From Bacteroidota bacterium (GTDB lineage Bacteria > Bacteroidota > Bacteroidia > Chitinophagales > Chitinophagaceae), in NCBI GenBank assembly GCA_013289065.1, contig JABDAP010000006.1, forward strand, positions 1-48,375: a stretch of 48,375 nt of DNA. The letters run 5' to 3'. The notes beneath the pieces are model-generated. The model was not told the DNA's origin. It made no database searches and worked only from the letters and a program-made list of their open reading frames with translations. Position numbers and translations under genes: made by a program. Within the stretch, counting starts at the first letter, position 1. Each line of letters begins with the position of its first letter. Shown in pieces: positions 6,129-39,675 of this stretch.

Positions 6129-6752
6129 TTGCACCCTGAAACTGACCATACTACTGATCATATCACTGCTTATGACGAAGCAGCTGTGCTGTCTAAAACG
6201 GCCGCAGGCGATGAGGTGGCTTTCGGCAGGCTCATGCAACGCTACTGGCAGAATATCTACCTGCATGTTCTCACGTATTTAAAAAGATCGGAGACGGCCG
6301 AAGAGGTCACGCAAGACATTTTTATACAGGTCTGGAAGATTCGCGCGGAACTCACTAAACTCAACAGCTTCGAGAGTTATCTCTATACCATGACGCGCAA
6401 CCGCACGATCACGGAGCTGCGTAAAAAAAGAGAACTTGCCAAAGAAGAAACCACGGATGATATCGCCGCCGAATGGCTGGCACCTGATGGACAATTGACT
6501 TACAAAGAAATGTATGAGTCGCTGATGCGGGGTGTGGCGAAAATGCCGCAGCGCAGGCGTGAAGTGTTTACCTTGAGCCGGCTGGAAGGGTTTACCCACA
6601 ACGAGATTGCGGAGAAACTCGGAATCTCCAGGCATACGGTGAACGAATACATCATCGATGCCATGAATTTTCTGCGCACCTGGATGCGCAACCATACTAA
6701 CGATAGTTTTTTACTTTCCGCAATCATCGCGCTGATCCTGTATGAATCCTGA
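6129..6752 (+). CDS. ECF RNA polymerase sigma factor 1 of locus A
   Basis: Sigma-70 region 2 spans about residues 27-97 (AFGRLMQRYWQNIY, AEEVTQDIFIQVWKIR, FESYLYTMTRNRTITEL). Region 4 spans about 130-188 (MPQRRREVFTLSRLEGFTHNEIAEKLGISRHTVNEYI). The predicted start is TTG at 6129, because no ATG lies before the conserved core. The C-terminus ends in a hydrophobic stretch (SFLLSAIIALIL), a trait shared with two other sigma factors here. Its last 11 bases overlap the next sigma gene, a paralog. The cognate anti-sigma should be the FecR gene at 8931. A possible promoter (TTTG at 6014, TAGTTTTA at 6033) has short spacing and is not secure. Confidence 0.87.
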   Translation: MHPETDHTTDHITAYDEAAVLSKTAAGDEVAFGRLMQRYWQNIYLHVLTYLKRSETAEEVTQDIFIQVWKIRAELTKLNSFESYLYTMTRNRTITELRKKRELAKEETTDDIAAEWLAPDGQLTYKEMYESLMRGVAKMPQRRREVFTLSRLEGFTHNEIAEKLGISRHTVNEYIIDAMNFLRTWMRNHTNDSFLLSAIIALILYES

Positions 6753-7350
6753 GTTGTCTATACCAGGTGATGAAGTATTGGTCCTTGATATTATCAACGG
6801 AAAAGAAGCGGCGTTGGCACTGCTGATCAAAAAATACTGGAAGGATATTTATTATGTAAGCCTTACTTATTTAAACCGCGCAGAGCATGCAGAAGAAGCC
6901 ACGCAGGACGTGTTCACTAAAATATGGCTGATGCGTGACCGCTTAAGTGATGTTACCAATTTTAAAAATTACCTGTTTACCGTTACGCGCAATCATGTGA
7001 TCTCGGAACTGCGTAAATCACTCAATAAAGAGCCTGTTGATTTTGATTTGCTCCGTGCTGAGCAGTCGAGCAATAATGATCAATCCCCTGAGCAAAAACT
7101 GGAATACAAAGAGTACCGTGAACTAATCGAAAAAGCGATTTCGCTCTTGCCGGAAAAAAGAAGAATGATATTTCGCTTAAGCCGGTTTGAAGGGCTTAGT
7201 TATAGTGAGATCGGAGAACAGTTGAACATTAAGTCTTCTACGATCAACGACCATATTACGCAGGCGAATAATTTTATTAAAACCTATTTGAGGGCGAATC
7301 TGCCGGGGATTATTATCAGTTGGGTGGTGATTGCGGGGAATATGTTATAG
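6742..7350 (+). CDS. ECF RNA polymerase sigma factor 2 of locus A (tandem paralog)
   Basis: The domain layout matches sigma factor 1: region 2 (ALLIKKYWKDIYYVSLTYL, AEEATQDVFTKIW, FKNYLFTVTRNHVISELRK) and region 4 (LPEKRRMIFRLSRFEGLSYSEIGEQLNIKSSTINDHI). The shared LTYLxR, AEExTQD and YLxTxTRN blocks indicate a tandem duplication. The ATG lies 11 bases inside the upstream gene, so translation is probably coupled. The tail is hydrophobic (GIIISWVVIAGNML). Region 4 differs between the two copies in its recognition helix (SSTINDHI versus RHTVNEYI), so they may read different promoters. Only one FecR gene lies downstream. Confidence 0.9.
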   Translation: MNPELSIPGDEVLVLDIINGKEAALALLIKKYWKDIYYVSLTYLNRAEHAEEATQDVFTKIWLMRDRLSDVTNFKNYLFTVTRNHVISELRKSLNKEPVDFDLLRAEQSSNNDQSPEQKLEYKEYRELIEKAISLLPEKRRMIFRLSRFEGLSYSEIGEQLNIKSSTINDHITQANNFIKTYLRANLPGIIISWVVIAGNML

Positions 7351-7355
7351 TGATT

Positions 7356-7694
7356 TTATAGCGCTGGTTTTGGAACCGGAAAATGTTCCAGCTCATACTC
7401 TTTGATCATGAAAGATAACAGTTGCAATTCACCTGAACTTTTTGAACCGGGTTTGTTATTTTTCTGCATAAGTGCAGAAACGCGCAACAACGCGTTTTCG
7501 TATTGATCATTGGTTTTGATAGTGGGTAGTGCCGGTATTATATACCTGTCTTTTTCGTAAGCCTGTGCAGCTAAAATAAGTAAACTGAGTTTACTGTCCT
7601 CTTGTTCGTTTAAGTTTCCTTCTCCTTTGTTCATCAATCGAAGGATTTCTTTCATCGCTTTAGTATATGCCGCGCTTGCCTGAAATGTTTTCAT
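7356..7694 (-). CDS. Antitoxin-like protein: tandem HigA-N-type segments without HTH
   Basis: This 112-residue reverse-strand protein contains two similar segments. The first is AMKEILRLMNKGEGNLNEQEDSKL followed by SLLILAAQAYEKDRYIIP. The second is YENALLRVSALMQKNNKPGSKSSGEL followed by QLLSFMIKEYELEHFPVP. Both resemble the helical N-terminal segment of HigA-family antitoxins (typically an LMDKGE...LELLALLIEAYE pattern), but no helix-turn-helix follows. No toxin gene is adjacent. It converges on the second sigma gene, with only five bases between the stops. It may be a remnant or a stand-alone regulator; the antitoxin relation is inferred from motif resemblance. Confidence 0.55.
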   Translation of the reverse strand: MKTFQASAAYTKAMKEILRLMNKGEGNLNEQEDSKLSLLILAAQAYEKDRYIIPALPTIKTNDQYENALLRVSALMQKNNKPGSKSSGELQLLSFMIKEYELEHFPVPKPAL

Positions 7695-7889: not shown

Positions 7890-8729
7890 ATGGCATATTT
7901 TCTTTTTATTGACGAAAGCGGCCAGGATCACCAGGACTCACCTTATGAGGTATTGGCTGGCTTTGCAATCGAGGACAAAGATCTTTGGCGATTTATACAA
8001 GACGTTCATGATATCGAAATGGACTGCTTTGGCAGACGCTATAGATTGGATGGTCGGGAAATTAAAGCTAAGAAGTTCCTTAATACTAAAACATTCAGGC
8101 TTGCCAACCAATTGGATCCCATTAATTTATTTGACAGGGTAAACCTTGCAAAAGCAGCACTGGATGAAGGTAATAATCCGGGACGGATAAAACTAACAGC
8201 ACTGGCACAGGCTAAGTTGGCCTATGTAAAAGAAGTGCTCAGGTTATGCGCCAAATACCGATGCAGGATATTTGCATCTATTGTAAAAGATCCTGCTTCT
8301 ATTCCGGCGGATAAAACCATGTTACGCCGCGATTATATTTACCTATTTGAAAGGTTTTATTATTTTCTGGAAGACAAGCCGAATGAGGCAAGAGGTGTCG
8401 TTGTATTTGATGAGTTGGAGAAGTCCCAAAGCCATATTCTGGTTACCCAAATGGATAGATATTTCAAACAGACCCATAAAGGCCGCAGTCGCTCAAGCCT
8501 GGTAATTCCAGAACCCTTCTTTGTGCACAGTGATCTGACAACAGGTATTCAGGTAGTAGACTTTATTGCTTATATTTTATCATGGAACTTCCGGCTTGAT
8601 AAACTTGATAAGCCTAAAAGAGAGGAATTAAATGGATATAACGAATTGGTAAAGTCGCTTCGATACAAAACCATCAGAGAAATCGGCGATATTCAGGATC
8701 ACGAAATATGGAGCGTCTGCGTGGTATAG
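7890..8729 (+). CDS. DUF3800 domain protein
   Basis: This 279-residue protein starts MAYFLFIDESGQ, the hallmark FIDESG strand of DUF3800. It later has GVVVFDELEKSQSH and SDLTTGIQVVDFIAYILSW, corresponding to the remaining conserved acidic positions (D8/E9; the Asp of VFDE; the Asp residues near the end). DUF3800 proteins have an RNase H-like fold, are suspected nucleases, and often sit in accessory or defence-rich regions. The gene lies between the sigma genes and FecR of locus A, where locus B has only a 71-base spacer, so it looks like inserted cargo. It has its own -7 box. The biochemical activity is unproven. Confidence 0.8.
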   Translation: MAYFLFIDESGQDHQDSPYEVLAGFAIEDKDLWRFIQDVHDIEMDCFGRRYRLDGREIKAKKFLNTKTFRLANQLDPINLFDRVNLAKAALDEGNNPGRIKLTALAQAKLAYVKEVLRLCAKYRCRIFASIVKDPASIPADKTMLRRDYIYLFERFYYFLEDKPNEARGVVVFDELEKSQSHILVTQMDRYFKQTHKGRSRSSLVIPEPFFVHSDLTTGIQVVDFIAYILSWNFRLDKLDKPKREELNGYNELVKSLRYKTIREIGDIQDHEIWSVCVV

Positions 8730-8930: not shown

Positions 8931-10139
8931 ATGGCTGAAACACCTGAATTGGATGGATTGCTGGAACAATTGGTTTCAGAGCGGCTCGACCGAAAGGGAA
9001 GAGCGTTGTTGAATGAATTGCTGGATCAGCCGGAAATTGCTGAGCGGTTGAAAAACCGTATTGACCAGGACCTGGTATCGGGTAAATACACGCCGGAGGA
9101 ACACCATGCGATTCACGCGATATTGGAAGCAAAGATACTGGCAGGTGTCTCCAGAAAGATAGGAGAACAACAAGGAGTGATTCAACCAGCGATTATGGCA
9201 CCGGTTCGCAAGATCGGTTGGGTCCGGTATGCAGCAGCAGCGGCCATCCTGTTTGCCATTGTCACAACTTATTTATTGGTAAACAAAAAAGATGAGCCTG
9301 TTGAACTTGCTGCAAAAATTGATATTAAAGCACCACAATCGAATCGTGCGATGATCACACTTGCCAATGGCAAAACAGTTTACCTGGATAGCGCCGCTAA
9401 TGGTAAACTGGCGAGCCTGGGGAATGTAGAACTGGTGAAATTGGCAGATGGACAGATCGCTTATTCGGGGTCATCCGATAAAATAGAATATAACACGATT
9501 ACCAATCCAAAAGGAAGTAAAGTGATTGATATGGCTTTTGTTGATGGCAGCCATGTATGGCTGAATGCCGGATCCTCTATTACTTATCCTGTACCATTTG
9601 AAAAAGATGCGCGTAAAGTAACAATCAGTGGTGAAGCATATTTTGAAGTGGCGCATAATGCATCCAAACCATTCAAGGTAAGTAAAGGTGAAACGGAAGT
9701 AACTGTGCTGGGTACGCATTTTAATGTGAACGCATATGATAACGAGCCGAATATACAGGTGACGTTGTTGGAAGGATCTGTAAGCGTAACGCACTCTAAT
9801 GCGAATGGGGCCAAACGCCAAATGCTGAAACCTGGTGAACAAGCTGTCGTAAATGCAGGAGATATTCAATTAATCAAAGATGCAGATACCGAACAGGCGA
9901 TTGCGTGGAAAAATGGAAAGACAAGTTTTCATGGAACGGGTATCGAAGCTGCTTTGCGTGAACTGGAGAGATGGTATGATATATCTTTTGAGATCAGCGG
10001 GCAGGCACCAGCTAAGAGTTTGAATTCCGATATTAACAGGAGTGAGCCTTTGAAAGATGTGTTGAAGACGATACTGGAAGACAATAACGTTCATTACCGT
10101 TTCGATTCAGAAAAAAGAAAATTGACAGTATTACCGTAA
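8931..10139 (+). CDS. FecR-family anti-sigma factor of locus A
   Basis: This inner-membrane anti-sigma regulator has 402 residues. A cytoplasmic N-terminal sigma-binding region (about 1-95) is followed by one membrane segment (about 98-118, YAAAAAILFAIVTTYLLV). The periplasmic FecR domain is marked by PKGSKVIDMAFVDGSHVWLNAGSSI, GEAYFEVAHNASKPFKV and GTHFNVNAYDNEP. A C-terminal DUF4974-like domain follows (IEAALRELERWYDISFEI, LKDVLKTILEDNNVHYRF). In this family the periplasmic part contacts the STN domain of the partner SusC/TonB receptor. The gene is 1.6 kb from its likely sigma genes because two accessory genes intervene, but it keeps its own ECF-like promoter. SusC follows after 127 bases. 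Confidence 0.93.
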   Translation: MAETPELDGLLEQLVSERLDRKGRALLNELLDQPEIAERLKNRIDQDLVSGKYTPEEHHAIHAILEAKILAGVSRKIGEQQGVIQPAIMAPVRKIGWVRYAAAAAILFAIVTTYLLVNKKDEPVELAAKIDIKAPQSNRAMITLANGKTVYLDSAANGKLASLGNVELVKLADGQIAYSGSSDKIEYNTITNPKGSKVIDMAFVDGSHVWLNAGSSITYPVPFEKDARKVTISGEAYFEVAHNASKPFKVSKGETEVTVLGTHFNVNAYDNEPNIQVTLLEGSVSVTHSNANGAKRQMLKPGEQAVVNAGDIQLIKDADTEQAIAWKNGKTSFHGTGIEAALRELERWYDISFEISGQAPAKSLNSDINRSEPLKDVLKTILEDNNVHYRFDSEKRKLTVLP

Positions 10140-10167
10140 TCTGATATCCGCTGTACCGAATAAAAAA

Positions 10168-10191
10168 CCGTCACGCTTGCAGGCGTAACGG
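10168..10191 (+). promoter_or_regulatory. FecR-SusC intergenic hairpin with GCTTGCA loop, locus A
   Basis: CCGTCACGC (10168-10176) pairs with GCGTAACGG (10183-10191) with one mismatch. The loop region contains GCTTGCA (10175-10181). Locus B has a hairpin of different stem sequence but the same GCTTGCA at the loop (29684-29690). There is no T-run directly after it, so a strong terminator is unlikely; attenuation, mRNA processing or protein binding is possible. Confidence 0.5.
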
Positions 10192-10208
10192 CAATGATGT
10201 TCGGGTAC

Positions 10209-10254
10209 TTCAATAACCAAAACGTTCTAGGCATCGATCATTGTTAACCCAAAC
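10209..10254 (+). promoter_or_regulatory. Conserved susC leader, locus A
   Basis: TCAATAACCAAAAC (10210-10223) and GTTAACCCAAAC (10243-10254) recur before susC of locus B (29721-29734 and 29752-29763). In both loci the second block ends exactly 12 bases before the ATG. This position-conserved leader in otherwise divergent spacers suggests a translation or RNA-binding element. Confidence 0.5.
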
Positions 10255-10266
10255 AATTGCAAACCT

Positions 10267-13200
10267 ATGCAATCAACTGCTTTCGGCAAAATGCCGTTCA
10301 CCAAATTGCTGCGCATTATGAAAGTGTCAGCCCTTTTACTGTTACTCGCTTTGCAGACTCTCGCACGCCCCACGGCCTCTGCGCAGGTCACGCTGAAGGA
10401 AAAATCCGCCAGCCTGGAAAAGATCTTAAGATCAATCCAGAAACAAAGCAACTACTCCTTAAGCTTTGACGAAATACTGCTCAAAGAAAAAGGAAAACCT
10501 GTAGCTATCAGTGTAGACAATGTCCCGGTCGAAGAAGCCGTCGCCATCGTTACCAAAACGCAGGACCAACTGGAGGTGATTCTTAACGGCCACATTATAA
10601 GTGTCCGCGAAAAAAAGCCTGCTCCCCCGGCAGTTCTATCCCAAGGGTTAAATCCCATGTTACCTCCACCGCCACCCATTGATATTAGTGGTAAAATCAC
10701 CGATAAAGATGGTAATCCGTTGAATGGTGCTTCTGTCAAAGTGAAGGGAACCAACAGGGGAACAACTACTGCTTTGGATGGTGTGTTTGTTTTAAAAGGA
10801 ATAGAGGGAAATGCGGTACTGGAAATTTCTTTTGTGGGTTATGAAACAACCACTGTTGCGGTGAATAATAAGACTTCGATCATTGCGAGTTTGAACGCTG
10901 CGACGCAATCATTGCAGGATGTGGTGGTGAGCAAAGGGTATTATTCGACTACGCAGAGATTGAATACTGGAGATGTTACTAAGGTCAGCGGGGATGATAT
11001 ACGAAAGCAGCCTGTAACGGATTTTATTCAGGCTTTAGAAGGGAAGGTTGCCGGGTTAGATATTCAGCAGGCATCAGGCATACCAGGCGCCTATGGCGCT
11101 GTACGGATCCGGGGCCAGAATAGTATGGATAATGGGAACGATCCTTTATACATTATAGATGGAGTGCCATTCGGTTCTGCCTCAATGAGCAGTACTTTTT
11201 TTGCCACCTCATTGGGCCAACCTTCTTCGTTGGTTAGTAATGGTAAGGGCAACCCCGTGAACAGCAATGGCAAAAATGGCGGGGAGGGGATGAGCCCGTT
11301 TAATAGCTTAAACACGTCCGATATTGAAAGCATAGAAGTCTTAAAAGATGCCGATGCAACAGCCATTTACGGATCAAGGGGTGCTAATGGCGTGATCCTG
11401 ATCACAACTAAAAAAGGCAAGGCAGGAAAGTCCCAAGGTGAGTTGAACATGCAGCAAGGCTGGGGAAAGGTAACCCGGATGATGAACCTCCTAAACACAC
11501 AGCAATATCTTGTTATGAAACGCGAGGCTTTCAATAATGATGGTTTTTCATCATTTTTAGTTCCGCAATTTGCAAGCAACTTCCCTGATTTGTTGTTCTG
11601 GGATACCACCCGCTATACGGACTGGCAGAAGGTATTAATCGGTAATACCGCTAAATATTCAAATATCCAGGGAAGTTTGTCAGGCGGGACAGTTAACACT
11701 CAATTTCTTATTAGTGGGGGGTATAGCAACCAGGGAACCGTTTTTCCGGGTAATTATTCTGATCAGCATGCTTCGGCGCATTTCAACCTGACTCATGCTT
11801 CAGAAAACAAGCGGTTCCATGCGCTGTTTACTATGGACTATGGCTACGCTATCAGCAATCTGCCACACTTCGATTTTACTCAATATATTACTACGGCACC
11901 AGATGCTCCTGCTCCTTATAATAAAGACGGGAGCCTGAACTGGCAACCTTTGAATGGAGCGCAAACATGGAATAACCCGTTGGCCACTACCTTCGATCAA
12001 GATAAAGCCATTACTACTACATTGGTCAGTAACTTAAGTATAGGTTACGAGTTGGTGAAAGGATTAACCCTAAAAAGCAGCTTCGGTTATAGCCGGTCCC
12101 AAATGGATCAAAGCAACCTGCAACCGTCAAGCGCTGCAGCTCCGCCTAATAATAATAACCCTACTTCAAGGTCTACATCTTTCGCTGTTAATGAAGTAAG
12201 CACCTGGATCATCGAACCGCAAATAAATTATAAGGCAAAGCTTGGTAAAGGGCAACTGGATGCCCTCGTCGGCGGCACATTCCAGGAAAATGTCAGCAAT
12301 TCCTTATCGCAAAGAGCATCCGGTTTTTCCAGTGATGCTTTGATCAACAACCCTGTAGCGGCAACTACATCGGTTTTAATAGGGAAAGCATATGCTGACT
12401 ATCATTATGAGGCTATCTATGGCCGGGTAGGTTATAACTGGGAGGAGAAATATCTCCTGAATATAACAGCCCGGCGAGACGGCAGCAGCCGCTTCGGGCC
12501 GAGAAAACAATTCGGTAATTTCGGGGCAATCGGTGCCGGCTGGATTTTCTCCAAGGAGAGTTTTTTCCGGAACGTTTCTTTTATCAGTTTCGGAAAATTG
12601 CGAGTTAGTTACGGCACTACGGGTAGCGACCAGATACCCGATTACAGGTATTTAAGCCTTTATGCGCCCCAGTCTTCCAGTTATCTTGGCGTAACCGGTT
12701 TACAGCCAACGAGTTTAACCAATCCTGACTTTGCCTGGGAAATCAATAAGAAGCTTGAAGGCGGTTTGGATATCGGTTTGATGAAAGACCGGATCAATCT
12801 TTCGGTAAGTTATTACCAGAACAGAAGCAGTAATCAATTGCTCCCGTACTCATTGCCGTTCTTGACTGGTTTTTCAGGTGTTTATGAGAATTTACCTGCC
12901 ACTGTTCAAAATACGGGCTGGGAATTTACCATAACAACGAGAAATATTGAAACAAAAGACTTCAAATGGACCAGTTCTGCTAACCTGACCATTCTCAGGA
13001 ATAAACTAATAGCTTTCCCCGGTCTGGCAACCTCTTCATATGCCAGTGTATGGTATATAGGACAATCCATATCTACGAGGCACTTAAACTATTCTAATGG
13101 GCTTGATACGAAAACAACAGGAGTCTATACGTTTCAGACAGCAAATGCTAACGGAATCCCTTCCTTTAACGAAGCTACTTATCCGGAACCGATAACACGA

Positions 13201-22841: not shown

Positions 22842-22926
22842 GTTCAGTATTACCCATCCCGCGCCATAGCCTTTGCAGCAACGGTGGGTACATACCATAC
22901 AAAAAAACTCCAATCAAATAATACAG

Positions 22927-29668: not shown

Positions 29669-29675
29669 ATAAAAG

Positions 29676-29700: not shown

Positions 29701-29709
29701 GGAATTTTG

Positions 29710-29763: not shown

Positions 29764-29775
29764 ACTCACAAAAGT

Positions 29776-32700
29776 ATGAAAATTACTGATCGCAGGCCTC
29801 ACGCCCAGATGCGTGGCCTCGCCCAAAACTGGCTGGCTATGAAACTCACCATCGTTTTACTGACCGCGGCCGTCTTCCAGGTAAACGCCCGCATCGTAGC
29901 GCAGAAAATAAATTACTCTGCCAAAAACGTGAGCCTTGAAAAACTATTTGCTGTAATCAAACAACAGACAGGGTATGTTTTTATTTACCGCAGCCAGGAT
30001 ATAGCTGCTGCCAAACCCATTACGGTTGAATTGAAAGATGCATCAGTTGAAACCGCGCTGCATGAGAGCCTTAAGAATCAGGCGTTAAGTTTTATGATTC
30101 AAGGCAATACTGTTTCTATCAGTAAAATGGACAACCACCTACCGGCTAATGAAACGGTTATCCCAAACGAAAACGCACCGCCACCCATTGACATCTCAGG
30201 TAAGATCACCGATAAAGATGGGAATCCATTGAACGGTGCCTCGGTAAAAGTAAAAGGAACCAATAAAGGAACGACAACTGCTGCGGATGGGGTGTTTGTG
30301 TTGAAAGGTGTAGAGGGCAATGCAACGCTTGAGATTTCTTTTATTGGGTATGAGACAACGAATGTTGCTGTGAATAACAAGACTTCTATTATTGCGAGTT
30401 TGAATGCTGCAATACAATCGTTACAGGATGTGGTGGTGAGTAAGGGATATTATACTACTACGCAGAGATTGAATACGGGGGATGTGTCGACGGTCAAAGG
30501 TGCAGATATACAGAAACAGCCGGTGACGGATTTTATACTGGCCCTGGAAGGCAGAGTAGCGGGATTATATATTCAACAGGCATCAGGCACTCCCGGAGCG
30601 TATAGTAACATTACCATACGAGGGCAAAACAGTATTGCGAATGGCAATGACCCACTGTATATTATTGATGGCGTCCCATTTAGTTCCGTTTCTTTAACAA
30701 GTACTAATATCGGGGGTGGTGCCATTGGCAGACCTAGCGGAATTACAAGTAATGGAACTGGTGTTGCCAGTGGTGGCGCCGGTATGAGCCCATTCAATAG
30801 TCTCAATCCTTCCGATATCGAAAGCATCGACATCCTAAAAGATGCAGATGCCACGGCTATTTATGGTTCTAGGGGCGCCAATGGAGTTATCCTGATCACT
30901 ACTAAAAAAGGGAAAGTTGGAAAGACTCAAGGTAATCTGAACATTGAGCAGGGCTGGGGGAAAGTAACTCGTGAGTTGAATCTGTTGAATACACAGCAAT
31001 ACCTGGCAATGCGCCGGGAAGCCTATAAAAATGACGGCCTAACGGTTCCTTCCTTCACTACTACGCCGACAAATACCATCTACGACATCAATGGCGTATG
31101 GGATTCGACCCGATATACCAACTGGGAAAAGACTTTGATCGGGAATACCGCCCAATTTACCAATATACATGGGGAAGTATCCGGCGGTACTGCCAATACG
31201 CAATTTTTGATTGGTGGCGGATATAGTAACCAGGGCACTGTATTTCCTGGAAGCTATTCCGATCAAAAAATTTCAACACATTTCAACCTGACACATGCTT
31301 CAGATGATGGGCGTTTTCATGTCCAATTTACTGCCAGCTATGTTTACGACAATAGTAATTTACCTCAAAGCGATCTCACCAGCAACATTACATTAGCCCC
31401 GGATGCTCCAGCCATATACGATGCAAACGGCAAAATTAACTGGCAGATCCTGAATGGGAAGGCTACTTGGGCGAATCCTCTTGCAGGTACTGTTGCGCAG
31501 GCGAAAGCCATTACAAACAATCTAACCAGCAATTTGGGTGCAAGCTACCGGGTTTTAGATGGATTAGAAGTGAAAAGTAGTTTTGGGTATACGCATACAC
31601 AGATGAATCAAAATATCCTGGTGCCAGCAACTGCATCCGCACCTCCTAATGATTTCAATCCTGCCAACCGGAGCAATAATTTTGCCACTACAGATTTTCA
31701 GACATGGATCATTGAACCGCAGGTGAATTATCAAAAAAAGATTTCGAAGGGACAGTTAAACGTTACTTTCGGAGCCACCCTTCAGCAGAATACCAAAAAG
31801 TCGATCGCTGAAAGAACGTCCGGGTATGCCAGCGATGCATTAATTTCCAATCCCTTGGCTGCAAGTACTATACAGCTATCTTCTAATGCTGATGTCCTAT
31901 ACCGATATAGCGCCCTTTTTGGAAGGATCGGGTATAATTGGATGGAAAAATATCTTATCAATATTACCGCCCGTCGGGATGGCAGCAGCCGGTTTGGACC
32001 TGGCAAGCAGTTTGGCAATTTTGGGGCGGTTGGAGCGGGATGGATATTTTCCAAGGAAAGTTTTTTTCAAAATAATCTCTCTTTTCTGAGTTTCGGTAAA
32101 TTGAAAGGCAGTTATGGGAGTAGCGGTAACGATCAAATACCTGATTACCAGTATCTCAGTTCCTATTCCTCACTTTCTTCTACCTATCAAGGCATTACAG
32201 GACTCTATCCAGCGCAATTGGCTAATCCCTATTTTGGTTGGGAATTGGTAAAGAAAATTGAAGGCAGCCTAGAGCTTGGATTATTGAAGGACCGGATTTT
32301 AATTTCCGCCAATTACTATCGGGACCGAACAGGCAATCAATTGGTCGGCTATCCATTATCGGCCATAACCGGCTTCCCGAGTATTCAATTCAACCTTCCT
32401 GCGGTTGTGCAAAATAGCGGTTGGGAATTTTCAATTAATGCCGTGAATATCCGGAACAAAAATTTTACCTGGATGAGTTCGGTAAACTTAACACTTCCCG
32501 CAAACAAGCTGATCGCATATCCAAATTTGGCACTATCAAGTTACAGCAGTGCTTATATAATCGGGCAACCCATTTCTGGGAGAAGGTCTTATCAATATAC
32601 CGGAGTAGACCCGCAAAAAGGGGTGTATACGTTTGCTACGAAAAATTCTAACGGCATTCCATCCAGCCCTCAAGATCTTGTCTCCTTCTTACCCTTCACA

Positions 32701-33177
32701 CAGAAATTTTATGGTGGCCTTCAAAACAGCTTTACGTACAAAGGGTTTCAACTTGACATTCTTGTGCAGTTCACCAAACAACTAACCCGTAATTATTTAA
32801 ATAACTTCGCCTTGCCGGGAGCATTTAACACTAATCAACCAGTTTCAGTATTAGGTCGTTGGCAGAATCCCGGGGATAACAGCAGTATTCAAAAGTTCTC
32901 AACAGGCACCAGCCAAAACAGCGCACTATATAATGCAGGTAAGTCAAGCAATCTGGGGGTTTCAGATGGTTCATTCATTCGTTTAAAAAACCTATCGCTT
33001 TCTTACCACATACCTGACGGTTTACAGAAAAGGCTGCATCTGCATGGTGCCAGGATATATCTACAGGCACAGAACCTTTTCACAATTACCAATTATTTAG
33101 GGCTTGATCCTGAAACCGGTGGGTTGAATTTGCCTCCGTTGAGAATGATCACGGCTGGTGTTCAACTTGCCTTATAG
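29776..33177 (+). CDS. SusC/RagA-family TonB-linked outer-membrane receptor with STN domain, locus B
   Basis: This 1133-residue protein has a long signal peptide region (to about residue 43), an STN domain (about 50-110, VSLEKLFAVIKQQTGYVFIY), a carboxypeptidase-regulatory-like domain from DISGKITDKDGNPLNGASVKV, a plug (ITIRGQNSIANGNDPLYIIDG; DIESIDILKDADATAIYGSRG) and a beta-barrel ending MITAGVQLAL. The STN part is clearly different from locus A, while the regulatory-like and early plug domains are near-identical in protein sequence. Sigma specificity is thus likely to have diverged while the transport core stayed alike. SusD begins 31 bases after the stop. Confidence 0.95.
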   Translation: MKITDRRPHAQMRGLAQNWLAMKLTIVLLTAAVFQVNARIVAQKINYSAKNVSLEKLFAVIKQQTGYVFIYRSQDIAAAKPITVELKDASVETALHESLKNQALSFMIQGNTVSISKMDNHLPANETVIPNENAPPPIDISGKITDKDGNPLNGASVKVKGTNKGTTTAADGVFVLKGVEGNATLEISFIGYETTNVAVNNKTSIIASLNAAIQSLQDVVVSKGYYTTTQRLNTGDVSTVKGADIQKQPVTDFILALEGRVAGLYIQQASGTPGAYSNITIRGQNSIANGNDPLYIIDGVPFSSVSLTSTNIGGGAIGRPSGITSNGTGVASGGAGMSPFNSLNPSDIESIDILKDADATAIYGSRGANGVILITTKKGKVGKTQGNLNIEQGWGKVTRELNLLNTQQYLAMRREAYKNDGLTVPSFTTTPTNTIYDINGVWDSTRYTNWEKTLIGNTAQFTNIHGEVSGGTANTQFLIGGGYSNQGTVFPGSYSDQKISTHFNLTHASDDGRFHVQFTASYVYDNSNLPQSDLTSNITLAPDAPAIYDANGKINWQILNGKATWANPLAGTVAQAKAITNNLTSNLGASYRVLDGLEVKSSFGYTHTQMNQNILVPATASAPPNDFNPANRSNNFATTDFQTWIIEPQVNYQKKISKGQLNVTFGATLQQNTKKSIAERTSGYASDALISNPLAASTIQLSSNADVLYRYSALFGRIGYNWMEKYLINITARRDGSSRFGPGKQFGNFGAVGAGWIFSKESFFQNNLSFLSFGKLKGSYGSSGNDQIPDYQYLSSYSSLSSTYQGITGLYPAQLANPYFGWELVKKIEGSLELGLLKDRILISANYYRDRTGNQLVGYPLSAITGFPSIQFNLPAVVQNSGWEFSINAVNIRNKNFTWMSSVNLTLPANKLIAYPNLALSSYSSAYIIGQPISGRRSYQYTGVDPQKGVYTFATKNSNGIPSSPQDLVSFLPFTQKFYGGLQNSFTYKGFQLDILVQFTKQLTRNYLNNFALPGAFNTNQPVSVLGRWQNPGDNSSIQKFSTGTSQNSALYNAGKSSNLGVSDGSFIRLKNLSLSYHIPDGLQKRLHLHGARIYLQAQNLFTITNYLGLDPETGGLNLPPLRMITAGVQLAL

Positions 33178-33208
33178 AATTAATATTAATAAAATTAAAA
33201 CGAAGAAT

Positions 33209-34609
33209 ATGAATCCCTTATTTAAAAGTTGTATTCTGGCTCTCTTTATTTTCCTTTTATTTCCAGGTTGCCAGAAATTTGTACAGATAGGACCGCCCAA
33301 TACTCAATTAGTTACTTCCAACGTATTTACCAGTTCTCCCACCGCGACAGCAGCACAAACGGTCATCTATACCAATATGAGCAATAATTTGGAATCTTAT
33401 TTGCTGTCCTTGGATAATGGCTTGTTGGCTGATGAATTAACCAACTATACGACAGACAATTTTCAAACAGCAATCTATCATGATGCTTTGAATGTAGGAT
33501 TAGGGGGAATCGGCCCCTGGACAAACGCTTATAATTATATTTATCAATCCAATGCCATTATAGCCGGGCTTCGCAATAATAATTTTATTCCTGCAAAGGT
33601 TTCCAACCAACTATCGGGTGAATCAAAATTCGTTCGTGCTTTTTGGTATTTTTACCTAATAAATCTCTACGGAGATGTACCGTTAATAACCGGTACAGAC
33701 TACACTGTAAATTCAACCGCCCCCCGTATGCCGAAGGCACAGGTTTATCAACAGGTTATTGCCGATCTTACAGATGCAGAAGGATTGTTAAACAATAACT
33801 ATGTAGACATAAGTGACACTACTATCACCTCAGAAAGAGTTAGGCCTAACAAATCTGCTGCGGCAGCAATGCTAGCTAGAACTTATCTATATCTAAAAAA
33901 ATATGATAGCGCCGAAGCCAAGGCCACCGAAGTTATTAATAATAATATTTACGTGCTTAACTCCAATTTGGACAACGTTTTTCTAAAAAACAGTAGCGAA
34001 GCTATCTGGCAGCTGATGATACCATTGCCTACTTCATTCAATACATGGGATGGCTTTTTATATATATTGACATCTGCCCCAAACAATGTTGCGATCAGCC
34101 CTGACCTTATGAGCAATTTCGAAGCCGGTGACAATCGAAAAAGCCATTGGATAGGTACCTATAATACTACTAATCCTCAAACATCTTATTATTTTGTCAA
34201 TAAATACAAAAACATTTCATCCACGGTTACAGAGTATAACATGGTATTGAGATTGGCCGAGCAATATCTTATCCGAGCAGAGGCCCGGGCACAACAGGGG
34301 AATCTTAGTGGTGCGATCTCTGACCTAAATATTATTCGTAACCGGGCAGGGCTCGCTAACACTTCCGCCAGCACGCAAAGTGCATTGCTGATTGCTATAT
34401 TGCATGAACGTCAATCAGAGCTTTTTGTGGAATGGGGGCATCGCTGGTTCGATTTGATCAGGACCGGTACAATCAATTCGGTGATGGGTAGCCCGGGAAA
34501 TGCCTGCCAATCCAAAGGGGGAATCTGGAATCCCAATAGCCAGCTTTACCCCATACCACAAGCTGAAATAAACGTTAATCCAAATCTCACACAAAATCCC
34601 GGGTACTGA
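33209..34609 (+). CDS. SusD/RagB-family substrate-binding lipoprotein, locus B
   Basis: The start at 33209 (MNPLFKSCILALFIFLLFPGC) gives a proper lipoprotein signal with the lipobox before Cys; the frame extends upstream to 33158 inside susC but adds no signal. Family segments are FVRAFWYFYLINLYGDVPLI, AAAAMLARTYLYLKKYDSAE, IRAEARAQQGNLSGAISDLN and LHERQSELFVEWGHRWFDLI. It is a clear paralog of the locus A SusD. Numerous small differences lie in the N-terminal half, where ligand contacts would be expected. The thioredoxin gene follows after 37 bases. Confidence 0.95.
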   Translation: MNPLFKSCILALFIFLLFPGCQKFVQIGPPNTQLVTSNVFTSSPTATAAQTVIYTNMSNNLESYLLSLDNGLLADELTNYTTDNFQTAIYHDALNVGLGGIGPWTNAYNYIYQSNAIIAGLRNNNFIPAKVSNQLSGESKFVRAFWYFYLINLYGDVPLITGTDYTVNSTAPRMPKAQVYQQVIADLTDAEGLLNNNYVDISDTTITSERVRPNKSAAAAMLARTYLYLKKYDSAEAKATEVINNNIYVLNSNLDNVFLKNSSEAIWQLMIPLPTSFNTWDGFLYILTSAPNNVAISPDLMSNFEAGDNRKSHWIGTYNTTNPQTSYYFVNKYKNISSTVTEYNMVLRLAEQYLIRAEARAQQGNLSGAISDLNIIRNRAGLANTSASTQSALLIAILHERQSELFVEWGHRWFDLIRTGTINSVMGSPGNACQSKGGIWNPNSQLYPIPQAEINVNPNLTQNPGY

Positions 34610-34646: not shown

Positions 34647-36026
34647 ATGATTCGTTGTAACTATTTGTTTTTCTTTTTCCCATTGTTGAGTCTTTTGACC
34701 AACAAGCTGTCGGCGCAAACTAATGGTCCTTCTGATCTGAGTTCAGGATCCCGCAATAAGTCCTGGACGACAACGCATTCCGATAGTTCTTACCGGGGGA
34801 TCAGGTTTGAGCAAAATCTCAACTGGCAAGAAGTACAGAATAAGGCTAAAGCAGAAAATAAGTATGTTTTCGTTGATTGTTATGCGACCTGGTGCGCTCC
34901 CTGCAAGAAAATGGATAAGGATGTATATCCAAAGGATTCCGTAGGCGAGCATATGAATGCCAGGTTTATTTCTATCAAGGTCCAAATGGATTCGTCAGAA
35001 AAGGATGATGAAAGTATAAAGAATATGTACGGGACTGCACATATTCTTGCCGACCAATATAAAGTTAACAGCTATCCAACTTTTCTTTTCTTTTCTCCGG
35101 AGGGAGAACTCGTTCATAAAGGTATCGGTGCTATAAGTGCCGAAAAATTTATTTTACTGGCAACCAATGCGACCCTTCCCAGTCAACAGTATTTTGTCTT
35201 AGTCAAATCTTATCAACAAGGTAAGAAGGATTACACGAAAATGCCCTATTTGGCTAATGCGGCCAGGGATCTTAAGGACGATAGCTTATCGAAGCAGATA
35301 GCCAATGATTATATTCATAACTATCTTGAAAAGATCGATACCAACAATTTATTAAAAAAAGAAAATATACAGTTTATCAACTCTTTTTACACCTTAATAA
35401 AATCAAAGGACAAGATCTTCGATTTATATTATCATTCTCCTCAAAAGATAGATTCTATTTGCGGGGACAAGGGGGCTTCAAAAAAATATATACGCTCCAT
35501 TATTTACAATGAGGAAATGCTTCCTTTGCTGGCAACAGGGGTTAATGAAAACCGGGCCCCAGATTGGGAAAAGAGTACACATGCTATCCAAAAAAAATAT
35601 GAAAGAATATACGCAGATTATGACCTGAATCAGGCTAGGATCCGGTGGTATTCTTATAAAAAAGATTGGAAAAACTATGCCAAATACCTTGTTCAGCAAA
35701 TCGAAATACAGATTGTCGAAAAAGAGCTGCCACCCGCACCATGGGCTATGTATTATCTGAACAACAATGCTTTTGACGTATTTAAGTATAGTAATAACAA
35801 AAAAGAATTGGAGAAAGCACTTTCGTGGTTTAATCAAGAGTTGCCGAATAGTGACAAGCCCTTTGCCGAGTACGTAGATACCAAGGCGAACCTACTCTAC
35901 AAATTAGGCCGAAAGAGAGAAGCTGTTGAACTGGAGGGCCAGGCAACCGCACTTGCGCCAGATGATAAGGAAATCCGGGCAAATTTCGAAAAGATGAAAA
36001 AAGGCCTCCCCACATGGGCTAACTGA
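34647..36026 (+). CDS. Secreted thioredoxin-fold protein with TPR-like C-terminus, locus B
   Basis: This 459-residue homologue of the protein at 22927 has a signal peptide (MIRCNYLFFFFPLLSLLTNKLSAQ), an extra Ser-rich linker, then the thioredoxin-like domain (FVDCYATWCAPCKKMD with redox CAPC; SYPTFLFFSPEGELV). The same unnamed middle domain follows (IHNYLEKIDTNNLL, ILPxL-like EEMLPLLATG, PDWEKSTHAIQKKYERIY), then TPR-like helices (ALSWFNQELPNSDKPFAEYVDTKANLLYKLGRKREAV, split). In locus B it precedes the amidohydrolase, whereas in locus A it follows it, so the order was rearranged while the content was kept. Confidence 0.83.
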   Translation: MIRCNYLFFFFPLLSLLTNKLSAQTNGPSDLSSGSRNKSWTTTHSDSSYRGIRFEQNLNWQEVQNKAKAENKYVFVDCYATWCAPCKKMDKDVYPKDSVGEHMNARFISIKVQMDSSEKDDESIKNMYGTAHILADQYKVNSYPTFLFFSPEGELVHKGIGAISAEKFILLATNATLPSQQYFVLVKSYQQGKKDYTKMPYLANAARDLKDDSLSKQIANDYIHNYLEKIDTNNLLKKENIQFINSFYTLIKSKDKIFDLYYHSPQKIDSICGDKGASKKYIRSIIYNEEMLPLLATGVNENRAPDWEKSTHAIQKKYERIYADYDLNQARIRWYSYKKDWKNYAKYLVQQIEIQIVEKELPPAPWAMYYLNNNAFDVFKYSNNKKELEKALSWFNQELPNSDKPFAEYVDTKANLLYKLGRKREAVELEGQATALAPDDKEIRANFEKMKKGLPTWAN

Positions 36027-36101
36027 ATAGGGCTCTCTTATGTGCGTCCCGTACCTGTATGCCGAGTACTTTATCTCCAATTATTTTTTTAATTGATTGT
36101 T

Positions 36102-39100
36102 GTGAATATAAAAAAAATAATACCGCCATTATTGTGTCTTCTGACCAACAATCTCAATTTCATTAGTGCTACCGCTCAAAGCCAGATTCCCATCCAGCCT
36201 GCACGCACTATCTCTTTTCAAACAACAGAAGGATCGTACATGGATGTCGATATCTCTGCGGATGGGAGCAAAATAGTTTTTGATCTTTTAGGAGATATCT
36301 ATACGCTGCCGTCAAGTGGTGGAAAAGCTAAGCAAATTACAAAGGGCTTGGCGTGGAACAGGTATCCAATTTGGTCGCCAGATGGAAAAGAGATTGCATT
36401 TATCAGCGATGTTACCGGTGCCAACCATATAAATATCATAGGTGGTGACGGTACTTTTAAACGAACAGTGGATAAATCTGAACCTCAAATAGTGTTTCTG
36501 CCTCAATCTAATGATGAGGGTACCCCCTTGTGGACGCCAGATGGCAATTATATCATTGAACATAGCCGCCTACATCATATGGCCGGAGGCTCTTTATCAC
36601 TACCTCTACCTGCATCGATTAAGAAAATCATCGGATTTTCCCGGGATGAACAGTTGATTTACTACTGCGATAGTGACACCGTGAAACAATATGACAGGCG
36701 GACACGAGGAATTAATCAAGTTATGAGACTTCCAGAAAATTATTGCAATGTGCAGATATCTCCAGACCTGAAATGGCTGACTTATATTACGGGGCCGGCT
36801 TTAGAAAGTAATATGGTAATCCGTAACCTTGTTACTTCCAAAGAAAAAATCCTGGTCCGAAGCATTGAACACCATTACCGTAGAATGGAAGAGCATTATG
36901 CCTTTACTAATAATTCTAAATACGTAATAGTTGGCTTTAACGGCAAAATACATAAAATAGAAGTGGAGAGTGGTGCCGACCACGAAATCCCGTTTGTGGC
37001 ACATGTGAATGTAGAGATGGGGCCATTTAACTACAACTTATTTAGAATACCACGCGATTCCTTACAAGTTCGCTATACTCGTTCCGCCAATGAAAGCCCT
37101 GATGGCCATAGCCTTGTATTTTCGGCCCTAAATCGTTTGTATGTCATGTCACTCCCTGGTGGAGAACCGCATGTATTAGCCGAACAGCCTTTTGGACAGT
37201 TTCAACCCGCTTACTCACCTGATGGGAAATGGATTGCTTACGCAACCCGGGATGATACCGAGGGGGGGGCTCTCTGGCGTATACCTTCCATTGGTGGTAA
37301 GCCAGAAAAGATCACCAGTAGTGATACACCTTTTATCTATTCTGCACCAACATGGTCTCCCGATTGCGAGCATTTGGTTTATATAAAACAAAATCGAACA
37401 ACAATGGGCATCTTCGGATTCATAGGGAAAGGCATATTGGGGGAAATGGAGATTGTTTCACTTAACGATAAGGCTATCCAAAAAGTGGCGGATAATATTC
37501 CTGTACAAAATACCCTTGCATTTTCGCCTGACGGCCGCCACCTTCTATTTAAGCCGCGAGAAACCCATAAGTGGCGTCAAGCATTATTGGTTTCTTTGAA
37601 TATAGACGATAAAAAAAACCAAGTTTTGAGCGTCCAATCTGACACAATCGATCATTTAGTTTCACCGGATTTTACGCAACAAGAAAAAATAGTTATTTCA
37701 CCGGATAATCGGTACGAGGTGATGGTGATAAATGAAAATTTATATTTATTACCGCTCTTTTCCAAACCCATGATAAGCAACCCATCAATGAGCGGTGCCC
37801 TTCGCTTAATTCAATTTGCCGATCGCTGTATGGATCTCAATTGGGAGAACGAAGGAAAAACATTCTGTTGGTCCTATGGTAATCAATTTTACCGCATCAA
37901 TCCAGATAAGATCGTTGCAAAAGCTGTACAGGTTACCAAGGATATCGGACGCTTTGGTTTAGGTGATAGTGGAGTTTTAAAAGTACAGGTTATGCCTGAT
38001 GAAACGATCACTATGAATATAAAAGTTCCTAAGCATTACGCTCACGGAACTATGGCGCTTCGTAATGTGAGAATTATTTCTATGAAAGATGATCAGGTTA
38101 TTGAACATGGCGTCATTATTATTACCAACGGAAGATTTACCGCTGTGGGCCCGGTAAATAAAGTTCATATACCCTTTGGAGCAAAGACAATGGACCTAAA
38201 GGGCAGGACTATTATTCCAGGATTAATTGATTTGCACAATCATATCTCCGCGAGCGATGATATTTATCAACAACAATCTTGGAAATTTCTTGCTAATCTT
38301 GCTTATGGCGTTACTACGGTTCGTGACCCTTCATCCAATTCCGATTCATTCGGGTATACAGAGTTACTCGAAACGGGGCAAATGACCGGACCCCGGTTAT
38401 TTTCAGTTGGCTTTTCAGTGCGGCAACCCTTACTGAGCTTTGATGACGCACGTTCATTCGTACAAAAAAGATCCGCATTAGGCGCTATTGCTATAAAACA
38501 GTATACGCAGCCTACGAGATTACAGAAGCAATGGCTACTAATGGCATGCCGTGAGGCCAAACTAAACATGACCAACGAAGGTGATTATGATCTCAAAAGC
38601 AGCCTGGCGATGATGAAGGATGGTTCAACAGGAGTGGAGCATACCGCTATTTATGGAAATATTTTCGAAGATGTAATCAGATTCATCTCCGAAGCTGGAA
38701 CCTGGCATACACCGACGTTGCAAGTATCACGTGGAGGCGAGGAAGGAGCAACTTATTTCAGAAATTTATTTCAACAACACCCTGATACGAAAGTGTACAA
38801 CTATTGGCCACAAGATTCTTATTCCGCGAAAATTACTTCCAAAAAAATTTCTACCACCGATACACTTGGTCGTGATTTTGTGTATAGTTCCAGTATCGAA
38901 GCTAAGATCTTTAAGCATGGAGGACACATAGCCATGGGCGCACATGGTGAAGACCAGGGGATCGGGTCTCATTGGGAGTTATGGGCGTTACAAATGGGGG
39001 GCCTTACTAATCTTGAGGCCTTGCAGACAGCAACCATTGAAGGAGCCAAAGCATTGGGTATACAACAGGATTTGGGTTCCATAGAAGTCGGCAAACTAGC

Positions 39101-39266
39101 TGACCTTATTGTTCTCGACAAAAACCCGCTGGATGATATTCATTATACTACTTCGATCCGTTACGTGATGAAAGGCGGGGAGCTTTTTGACGGAGATACG
39201 CTTGATACCCTCTGGCCGGTAGCAAAAAAAATACCTGAATGGAAACTAAAGAAGCCAGTTAATTAA
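36102..39266 (+). CDS. Exported beta-propeller amidohydrolase, locus B
   Basis: The architecture matches the two locus A enzymes: signal peptide, PD40/TolB-like propeller (DISADGSKIVF, IWSPDGKEIAF, YSPDGKWIAY, FSPDGRHLLF, ISPDNRYEVM) and amidohydrolase domain. The metal-ligand region is LIDLHNHI, HxH at about H712/H714 from this start, with later IKQYTQ, GVEHTA, GTWHTPT and GAHGEDQG. The tail KLADLIVLDKNPLDDIHYT is conserved. There is no ATG near the signal peptide; GTG at 36102 (MNIKKIIPP) is chosen, and TTG at 36093 is an alternative. The protein is more divergent from the locus A pair than they are from each other, so the tandem duplication in locus A is probably later than the split between loci. 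Confidence 0.85.
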   Translation: MNIKKIIPPLLCLLTNNLNFISATAQSQIPIQPARTISFQTTEGSYMDVDISADGSKIVFDLLGDIYTLPSSGGKAKQITKGLAWNRYPIWSPDGKEIAFISDVTGANHINIIGGDGTFKRTVDKSEPQIVFLPQSNDEGTPLWTPDGNYIIEHSRLHHMAGGSLSLPLPASIKKIIGFSRDEQLIYYCDSDTVKQYDRRTRGINQVMRLPENYCNVQISPDLKWLTYITGPALESNMVIRNLVTSKEKILVRSIEHHYRRMEEHYAFTNNSKYVIVGFNGKIHKIEVESGADHEIPFVAHVNVEMGPFNYNLFRIPRDSLQVRYTRSANESPDGHSLVFSALNRLYVMSLPGGEPHVLAEQPFGQFQPAYSPDGKWIAYATRDDTEGGALWRIPSIGGKPEKITSSDTPFIYSAPTWSPDCEHLVYIKQNRTTMGIFGFIGKGILGEMEIVSLNDKAIQKVADNIPVQNTLAFSPDGRHLLFKPRETHKWRQALLVSLNIDDKKNQVLSVQSDTIDHLVSPDFTQQEKIVISPDNRYEVMVINENLYLLPLFSKPMISNPSMSGALRLIQFADRCMDLNWENEGKTFCWSYGNQFYRINPDKIVAKAVQVTKDIGRFGLGDSGVLKVQVMPDETITMNIKVPKHYAHGTMALRNVRIISMKDDQVIEHGVIIITNGRFTAVGPVNKVHIPFGAKTMDLKGRTIIPGLIDLHNHISASDDIYQQQSWKFLANLAYGVTTVRDPSSNSDSFGYTELLETGQMTGPRLFSVGFSVRQPLLSFDDARSFVQKRSALGAIAIKQYTQPTRLQKQWLLMACREAKLNMTNEGDYDLKSSLAMMKDGSTGVEHTAIYGNIFEDVIRFISEAGTWHTPTLQVSRGGEEGATYFRNLFQQHPDTKVYNYWPQDSYSAKITSKKISTTDTLGRDFVYSSSIEAKIFKHGGHIAMGAHGEDQGIGSHWELWALQMGGLTNLEALQTATIEGAKALGIQQDLGSIEVGKLADLIVLDKNPLDDIHYTTSIRYVMKGGELFDGDTLDTLWPVAKKIPEWKLKKPVN

Positions 39267-39294
39267 TTAATGTCAGCAACGGAATAAAATAAAG

Positions 39295-39675
39295 GTGAAA
39301 ACTTTACTTCTCATTTTATGTACAGCCTTCTTGTTAAGTTATTTTTTAACGGAGAGCAAATCTCAAACGACTGCAAGTGTCGCCCAGAGGGATATAGATA
39401 CTGTTGCTACAAAAACACTTGTTACCATTCTGGTTTATGATAATAATGCGGTCATTAAGCAGGTAACCGATCTATGCGAAGTATTTCATTCCACGGACCA
39501 TGAAACAGAAGACAGCAAAGAACAAGCAGGTATGGTGCTTATAAGGGCATACTTTCTGAATATTCAAAAAAAACAGGAAAAGGAATTGGTGGAAAAACTG
39601 GAAGCGATTTCAGGAGTAGCGGCAGTTAAAACCAAAACAGAAAAGAATGCAGAAAGACAGCTTCGTTGCGCATAA
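39295..39675 (+). CDS. Small secreted protein (126 aa), locus B end
   Basis: The start codon is GTG at 39295, giving signal peptide MKTLLLILCTAFLLSYFLTE. The mature part has a beta-alpha-beta-like pattern (TKTLVTILVYDNNAVIKQVTDL, MVLIRAYFLNIQKKQEKELVEKLEAISGVAAVKTK), recalling ferredoxin-like ACT or NIL folds, but no family is certain. It lies 28 bases after the amidohydrolase gene and is probably the last gene of the locus B operon. It may play the same positional role as the 157-aa secreted protein in locus A, although the sequences are unrelated. Confidence 0.55.
   Translation: MKTLLLILCTAFLLSYFLTESKSQTTASVAQRDIDTVATKTLVTILVYDNNAVIKQVTDLCEVFHSTDHETEDSKEQAGMVLIRAYFLNIQKKQEKELVEKLEAISGVAAVKTKTEKNAERQLRCA

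Follow-up and report, generated by a model that had tools for sequence, protein, structure and literature searches.

Each of two neighbouring loci in the window (the whole 48,375-nucleotide stretch of DNA analysed) is proposed to be an uptake cassette for oligopeptides or glycopeptides, controlled by an ECF sigma factor and a FecR-type anti-sigma factor and furnished with an exchangeable hydrolase; the probability of this reading is put at about one half. Going by what is known of the protein families, on which everything said about transport and signalling, the chemistry, the periplasmic location and peptides as the substrate is based, SusC and SusD would import the substrate across the outer membrane, and substrate in SusC would signal through the SusC N-terminal domain to FecR, which would then free the ECF sigma factor and turn the operon on. 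A periplasmic PD40-amidohydrolase (AH), a prolidase- or carboxypeptidase-like metal hydrolase behind size-selecting beta-propellers, would cut the imported peptide, while a thioredoxin-solenoid protein (TRX) would keep thiols of the substrate or of partner proteins reduced. The hydrolase would be the exchangeable part, an S9 prolyl-oligopeptidase-like enzyme standing beside TRX in many relatives, AH in the window, and both in genome G035.

Locus A begins with two plus-strand ECF sigma factors, A1 (6129-6752; Pfam Sigma70_r2 and r4_2) and A2 (6742-7350; Pfam, and above the cut-off of NCBIfam TIGR02985). A DUF3800 gene (7890-8729; Pfam) is also present, and a small minus-strand ORF sits between sigma and FecR. 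The remaining genes lie on the plus strand: FecR (8931-10139; Pfam FecR and FecR_C), the SusC-type TonB-dependent transporter (10267-13674; Pfam Plug and CarbopepD_reg_2), the SusD lipoprotein (13700-15166; Pfam SusD_RagB and SusD-like_3), the PD40-amidohydrolase AH_A1 (15246-18422; Pfam PD40 and Amidohydro_1, signal peptide by inspection), a small protein with a signal peptide by inspection and no Pfam match (18474-18947), a weak relative of which adjoins TRX in G028 (31%, 38 bits), and AH_A2 (18962-22222; Pfam), a tandem copy 79% identical to AH_A1. By sequence alignment, the next product (22272-22841) is a TRX relative without the Trx domain and without the solenoid's C-terminal part, 53% identical to residues 184-341 of TRX_A. 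TRX_A itself (22873-24240) has a thioredoxin domain (WCAPC; Pfam Thioredoxin_7) and a C-terminal part homologous to the solenoid of TRX_B. The locus ends with the GH78 alpha-L-rhamnosidase (24323-26995) already named by the sequence-only reading and upheld by Pfam (Bac_rhamnosid6H, E 3.2e-125). A further ECF sigma factor lies between the loci on the minus strand (26985-27605) and has relatives of 49-50% identity at two places on contig C48 of the same genome. Locus B, on the plus strand throughout, consists of an ECF sigma factor (27828-28442; Pfam), FecR (28514-29668; Pfam), SusC (29776-33177; Pfam), SusD (33158-34609; Pfam), a lipoprotein whose assigned GTG start overlaps SusC, TRX_B (34647-36026) and AH_B (36093-39266; Pfam). 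A small plus-strand protein with a signal peptide by inspection and no Pfam match follows (39295-39675).

Judged from their sequences, the two loci are paralogous, as first supposed: identities reach 59% for SusC, 55% for SusD, 48-49% for AH, 43% for TRX and 36% for FecR, and only 26-28% for the sigma factors. The shared set that had been described holds for sigma factor, FecR, SusC, SusD, TRX and AH, all found in both loci by Pfam; of the STN domain included in that description there is a match in SusC_B only, at 24.3 bits against a curated cut-off of 28.4. The source genome (53% complete) contains at least five SusC matches of the window's clade (six candidates scored), and expansion of the cassette there to at least five SusC copies is the best reading. 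Additional AH genes occur on contig C48, on C62, where the end of the contig truncates the gene, and on C87, where it is split between two ORFs. Such per-genome copy counts are lower bounds, because only some of the candidates in each genome were scored (for example 2 of 26 or 4 of 26). A hairpin in the FecR-SusC gap seemed conserved by eye among the copies of this genome; in 44 such gaps of other loci the mean longest stem was 7.7 bp versus 6.9 bp after shuffling.

Among the nearest solved relatives of AH, AH_B included, are the Arg carboxypeptidase 3mtw (Cc2672), the Xaa-Pro dipeptidase 2qs8 and other amide hydrolases. All three AHs of the window have the HxH, KQY, EH and WHTPT motifs, whose HxH, Lys, His and His are presumably the amidohydrolase metal ligands. 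The amidohydrolase-fold domain is common to AH, 3mtw and 2qs8, but the latter two are chains of about 400 residues without the propeller part, and their GTD motif aligns to GAH in AH. The chemistry of AH may therefore differ, a His standing in place of the usual Asp. A G[AS]HG motif was read in each AH of the window and in all of the other PD40-AH ORFs inspected (29 of 29), one match (L116) being doubtfully placed. The common PD40-amidohydrolases have the same domains and motif; they differ in being only about 30-33% identical to the window AHs, and SusCD was nearby in none of eight hand-picked loci of theirs. The subfamily of the window is rare (5 of 394 genomes of the family, with some of the candidates per genome scored), and a class sample of 395 contained none besides the window's own. 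Among the titles and abstracts listed by searches of an open-access library, none deals with SusCD beside a PD40-amidohydrolase.

Conservation of the gene content across genera is directly observed. Members of the window's AH subfamily stand close to both SusCD and TRX in four of five loci from three other genera, with AH and SusC 40-45% identical to those of the window and the gene order rearranged; in the exception, G317:C12, AH is without TRX, and the sole SusC/SusD is a distant one some 8 kb off. A set private to the source genome, which would have counted against a common function, was looked for and is ruled out by these loci. That the parts go together, as suggested earlier, is supported both by this retention and by the TRX tree, on which SusCD-linked proteins cluster (5 label changes versus a shuffled mean of 16.6, with 0 of 500 shuffles as low). 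The alternative that one chance neighbourhood was merely copied within a lineage has in its favour that all copies in the source genome are paralogues and that AH_A1 and AH_A2 are recent tandem copies; the reordered set in three other genera at 40-45% identity and the clustering on the tree largely refute it, and it is regarded as very improbable.

TRX_B combines a thioredoxin domain with a helical solenoid of about 280 residues (Pfam, AlphaFold2, Foldseek); its AlphaFold2 model has a mean pLDDT of 89.7, and its Foldseek matches are 2ju5, 2kuc and 1uc7. With secreted thioredoxins of the DsbD-gamma/DsbH-like kind TRX shares the Trx fold, the CxxC and, by inspection only, a signal peptide. From the thiol protein, the sequence-only reading had suggested that the substrate might carry disulfides. 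In the window's SusC clade, however, a Trx-fold gene usually stands behind SusD: among 36 loci, the gene behind SusD matched AhpC/TSA in 23 and Thioredoxin_7 in 4, two counts that may overlap. As controls, 20 SusDs were hand-picked from one genome, G018 (82 matches); among the best 25 of 26 Pfam families, no Trx match was found behind 14 of them, which were followed by glycosidases and other genes. Since such a gene is a general feature of this clade, TRX is no pointer to a disulfide substrate, and that inference is ruled out. The idea that the loci take up one particular compound, be it disulfide-bearing, a lactam or a cyclic peptide, would find some encouragement in the joint presence of AH and TRX beside SusCD in other genera and in ochratoxinase 4c5y, which is among the superfamily kin of AH. 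It is nonetheless improbable, as Trx-fold genes follow SusD in most loci read of the clade and no lactamase or cyclic-peptide enzyme is among the Pfam matches of either locus; nothing specific to the lactam or cyclic-peptide substrates once suggested was found.

A more serious alternative, compatible with the other readings and given somewhat less than an even chance, is that TRX serves the cassette and not the substrate, by maturing or repairing cysteines of SusD or of the secreted hydrolases, or by passing a redox signal to the regulators. The occurrence of Trx-fold genes behind SusD whatever the other content would fit this, as would the cysteine counts of five in SusD_A, three in SusD_B (that of the lipobox counted) and three to seven in the AHs, with none in SusC and FecR. 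These counts come from window proteins only, and a conserved disulfide is not among the findings. A role of TRX in SusC disulfides can be discarded, as SusC_A and SusC_B are without Cys.

For the nature of the substrate, the enzymes of related loci are the main guide. Forty of 53 TRX places were taken, leaving out four of the source genome, three others (G085 and, twice, G035:C2) and the six lowest. SusD was present in 19 of these 40 neighbourhoods, and 13 of the 19 had a relative of S9 peptidases, in every case on the TRX strand and in 8 of 13 directly adjoining TRX. Genes in neighbourhoods were labelled by BLAST against proteins of the window, G035 and G085, so that other families remain unlabelled. 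A Pfam scan of 27 ORFs in the runs that follow SusD, the sole family scan covering such genes of TRX loci, gave Peptidase_S9 as the commonest family (9 ORFs), followed by GH2 (2), pectate-lyase-like (2) and GH28 (1), among the best 25 of 29 families. G035 has in a single run SusCD, two TRX, AH, three S9, a DPPIV and an S10 carboxypeptidase, with GH2, GH116 and L-fucose isomerase further downstream; GH2 also lies near G085. Different enzymes are thus seen in otherwise like loci: sigma-FecR-SusC-SusD-TRX-S9 loci of other genera of the family share the SusC clade, TRX clade and order of the window, and differ in that S9 adjoins TRX where the window has the PD40-amidohydrolase. The window's own loci have no peptidase family, only AH. 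A peptidase so often beside the thiol protein suggests that the window clusters may handle peptides or glycopeptides and not plain sugars. Glycosidases near some copies count against the peptide reading, as does another set of 40 SusC loci from the clade (hand-picked, weighted to high scores and excluding TRX loci already taken): just 4 of them have the S9 marker, 8 the TRX marker and none AH. Further points against it are the His-for-Asp difference of AH, the rarity of its subfamily, the arrangement at G317:C12, the SusC homologs that outscore RagA and the unspecified nature of the best solved SusD matches.

The same material bears on a glycan or glycoside locus, in which rhamnosylated plant oligosaccharides or glycosides would be taken up, GH78 would be the main enzyme and AH would remove an acyl or amide decoration. 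GH78 adjoins AH twice in the source genome, in locus A and on contig C87, the latter also with a GDSL esterase, and the GH2, GH116 and L-fucose isomerase of G035 and the GH2, GH28 and pectate-lyase-like matches of some TRX loci point the same way. Set against these are the Pfam scan of locus B, which revealed no glycosidase, the prevalence of S9 behind SusD, and a GH78 marker in just 1 of 40 TRX loci; this explanation is considered unlikely, yet deserving of some weight. The earlier view that these are not plain glycan loci gains from the S9 peptidases in 13 of 19 SusD-bearing TRX loci and loses from the GH2, GH28 and pectate-lyase-like genes there. Rhamnosylation as a general property of the substrate was not borne out: within the source genome GH78 adjoins AH in locus A and on C87 but not in locus B, and no GH78 marker turned up in the stretches covering the five AH loci from other genera.

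Polysaccharide utilisation loci under ECF sigma/FecR control have the order sigma, FecR, SusC, SusD, with presumed trans-envelope signalling. The window loci have this order in common, with sigma and FecR adjoining SusC/SusD in both, as in other genera; they add a Trx-fold gene behind SusD, plus AH or S9. The best solved matches of SusC_B are 8aa4 (274 bits), 5t3r (211) and RagA (6sli; 204), and those of SusD_B are unspecified SusD homologs. RagAB of Porphyromonas gingivalis is a SusCD-type pair reported to import protease-made peptides (PMC11817032). The window pair is of the same type and SusC_B matches RagA; RagA is, however, only its third-best solved match, and an ECF/FecR-TRX-hydrolase cassette is not named for RagAB in the available portion of that source (PMC11817032).

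As a narrower form of the peptide or glycopeptide cassette, a putative class of glycopeptide utilisation loci may be imagined, speculative and with a rather small chance of being right: a modular Bacteroidota cassette whose targets would be glycoproteins rich in proline or hydroxyproline, for instance the arabinogalactan proteins or extensins of plants. SusCD would import the glycopeptides, GH78 and other glycosidases would strip rhamnose or arabinose, exchangeable periplasmic propeller-hydrolases (S9, or the His-for-Asp amidohydrolase) would cut prolyl amides, and a dedicated thioredoxin-solenoid protein would be the third core component. SusC/SusD pairs are habitually read as sugar importers. 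In this SusC clade a Trx-fold gene usually stands behind SusD, and in the thioredoxin-solenoid branch there is often also a propeller peptidase or, as in the window, an amidohydrolase. Should the peptide reading prove true, this would provide a sequence mark for SusCD loci devoted to substrates other than glycans, and the PD40-amidohydrolases and thioredoxin-solenoid proteins would gain a testable function.

Pfam matches bore out both loci, A and B, where the sequence-only reading had placed them in the window, and their content of ECF sigma, FecR, SusC, SusD, a secreted thioredoxin-solenoid protein (TRX_A, TRX_B) and a secreted PD40 propeller-amidohydrolase (AH; AH_A1 and AH_A2 in locus A, AH_B in locus B) is real and paralogous. 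Identity between the loci is 59% for SusC, 55% for SusD, 48–49% for AH and 43% for TRX, and the greatest divergence is found in the regulators (FecR 36%, sigmas 26–28%). The AH pair of locus A is 79% identical, and alignment revealed a TRX relative without the Trx domain at 22272–22841. Between the sigma and FecR genes of locus A lie a small minus-strand ORF (7356–7694) and a DUF3800 gene (7890–8729). Two ECF sigmas per FecR-SusCD unit are seen in the window (6129–7350; 26985–28442) and in other stretches read (L016 5913–7562; L249 9511–11451; L167; L183), the second often being of another type or divergent. Pfam matches to RteC (4274–4894) and, below cut-off, to TraO (43883–44389) may be remnants of a conjugative element surrounding the two loci. 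The window also holds a LytTR response regulator with a histidine kinase (40511–42808) and a large protein with Ig-like matches that runs past the window end (44399–48373).

A search of the assembly (2.44 Mb, 129 contigs, completeness rated 53%) gave five matches to SusC of this clade, with the window and contig C48 holding two each and C62 one. The C62 copy reads sigma-FecR-SusC-SusD-AH up to the contig end, and the first C48 unit has the same order with SusC split across two ORFs; the second C48 unit (sigma-FecR-SusC-SusD) is truncated at the contig start, and the opposite end of C48 carries a TRX gene. All four units in which the gene behind SusD is readable (A, B, one on C48, C62) carry AH after SusD, directly or behind TRX. 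On a further contig, C87, genes for a GH78 and a GDSL esterase accompany a solenoid protein lacking the Trx domain and an AH divided between two ORFs; an N-terminal fragment there (L250 8512–9084) has no Pfam match but resembles an arabinofuranosidase by a motif seen by eye. Beside the C48 sigma genes are two small ORFs (L249 10235–10917) that by eye look like a HigBA toxin-antitoxin pair. An inverted repeat (CCG...CGG) lies between FecR and SusC in the window (10139–10266; 29668–29775), C62 and C48, its sequence varying among these copies with the stem kept by eye; GTTAACCCAAAC stands just upstream of the SusC start in four of the five. Similar CCGG hairpins occur in some loci of other genera, with stems overall barely longer than in shuffles.

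The cassette is conserved across genera. With a profile built from four AHs, members of the AH subfamily (at least 858 bits, E up to 1e-220) were detected in five of 394 family genomes, representing four genera including the window's own; an order sample yielded three of 396, all within those five, and a class sample of 395 the window's genome only. Database names add members in Mucilaginibacter, Niastella and Puia at 43–44% identity. The co-occurrence of SusCD, TRX and AH proposed from sequence holds beyond this genome in four of five AH-bearing loci: G035 (FecR-SusC-SusD-S9-DUF4397-TRX-S9-TRX-AH-DPPIV-S10-S9, S9 being a prolyl-oligopeptidase-like relative), G085 (a divergent TRX, then sigma-FecR-SusC-SusD and AH), contig C8 of G317 (SusC-SusD-DUF4397-TRX, other genes, AH, a long TRX relative and sigma-FecR-TRX-SusC-SusD) and G365 (FecR and sigma, SusC-SusD-TRX, ORFs resembling insertion-sequence genes by eye, AH). 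The fifth, on contig C12 of G317, has AH but no TRX, and its only SusC/SusD is a distant one (24%) some 8 kb away. As a control, eight stretches of 11 to 20 kb around common PD40-amidohydrolases (30–33% identical to the window AHs) gave no match to SusC or SusD. When the top 120 TRX database clusters were compared with 119 of the top 120 for AH, 12 contig sizes coincided exactly, one being the window itself (sizes include 6,989, 9,116 and 9,424 bases), against a mean of 0.26 and a maximum of 2 when sizes were offset by 1 to 200. Near the G085 locus (L143 7439–11238) a protein of ~1,080–1,090 aa matching NAD_binding_8/Amino_oxidase adjoins a small Trx-like protein, a pair with by-eye look-alikes at G317 C8 (L159/L160); several proteins of ~90–120 aa with an N-terminus like MKKVKIMLxAI, which we take to be DUF6520-like, occur near L143, L159/L160 and L161.

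TRX itself (E up to 1e-50) is present in 36 of 195 family genomes. In 40 neighbourhoods read in addition to the AH-bearing ones above, SusD was found in 19 (a distant relative only in three: L174, L197, L202), SusC in 18, FecR in 17, sigma in 15, DUF4397 in 6, GH78 in 1 and AH in none. An S9 relative occurs in 13, every one among the 19 with SusD, always on the TRX strand and adjoining TRX in 8; five loci (L167, L191, L199, L204, L205) show exactly sigma-FecR-SusC-SusD-TRX-S9. Pfam was run on the 27 ORFs that follow SusD without a break in these 19 loci, not counting TRX or the extra sigma-FecR-SusCD set in L202. Peptidases come foremost and glycosidases are present too: Peptidase_S9 9, DUF4397 3, GH2 2, pectate-lyase-like 2, GH28, DUF2961, GxGYxYP and AhpC-TSA once each, and other families besides. 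On a quickly built tree of 50 TRX proteins, 28 rows bore the label of SusCD linkage (SusC/SusD in the same locus or no more than 4 kb off). This label required 5 changes against a shuffled mean of 16.6, with none of 500 shuffles as low; one group of 21 rows, every one of them linked, contains the two window proteins (SH-aLRT 86), and eight linked rows (the window's, C48, G085, G035, G194, G365, G162) group at 98. The window loci are a variant of this ECF/FecR-SusCD-Trx class: many relatives carry an S9 peptidase at the place where the window has a PD40-amidohydrolase.

A Trx-fold gene behind SusD is usual across this SusC clade. SusC_B matches (E 1e-150 or better) occur in 42 of 117 family genomes, and 40 chosen neighbourhoods contained SusD in 39, FecR in 31, sigma in 30, and markers for TRX in 8, S9 in 4 and AH in 0. 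A same-strand ORF follows SusD within 500 bases in 36; by Pfam 23 of these are AhpC-TSA and 4 Thioredoxin_7, and 28 carry an aromatic-near CxxC, one (L212) probably within the signal peptide. The next ORF onward, read in 16 of 17 cases, gave AhpC-TSA 4, S9 2, and GH97 and GH38 once each. As a control, 20 SusDs of genome G018 were chosen outside known clade loci; 14 of them had a following ORF of this kind, none of which bears the CxxC motif, and no Trx-like family is among the 25 Pfam families displayed for them. Because the Trx fold is usual in the clade and was not seen in these controls, the gene is characteristic of this type of SusCD pair and tells little of the substrate here. The disulfide-bearing or lactam substrate of the sequence-only reading finds no support. 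The association with peptidases is a feature of the TRX branch and does not extend to the SusC clade as a whole.

The model of TRX_B (mean pLDDT 89.7) comprises a thioredoxin domain and ~280 helical residues; by Foldseek the former matched DsbH, a Bacteroides disulfide isomerase and DsbD-gamma, and TPR superhelices were matched weakly. The AH C-terminal domain matches an Arg carboxypeptidase (3mtw), an Xaa-Pro dipeptidase (2qs8) as well as other amide hydrolases, with the HxH, Lys, His and His motifs retained. At the GTD position of 3mtw and 2qs8, PD40-AHs have G[AS]HG, found in the three window AHs and in 29 of 29 other ORFs read (27 common PD40-AHs and two subfamily members), its place being doubtful in one. 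By inspection, AH, TRX and GH78 have signal peptides without a clear lipobox, and SusD has a lipobox. SusCD transport, FecR/ECF signalling and periplasmic placement are known for these families; here SusCD would transport the substrate, FecR/ECF would signal, and the enzymes would act in the periplasm. The peptidases in like cassettes and the nearest solved kin of AH suggest a peptide substrate, to which we give a probability of about one half; with glycosidases close to some copies, glycopeptides or glycosides may also come into question.
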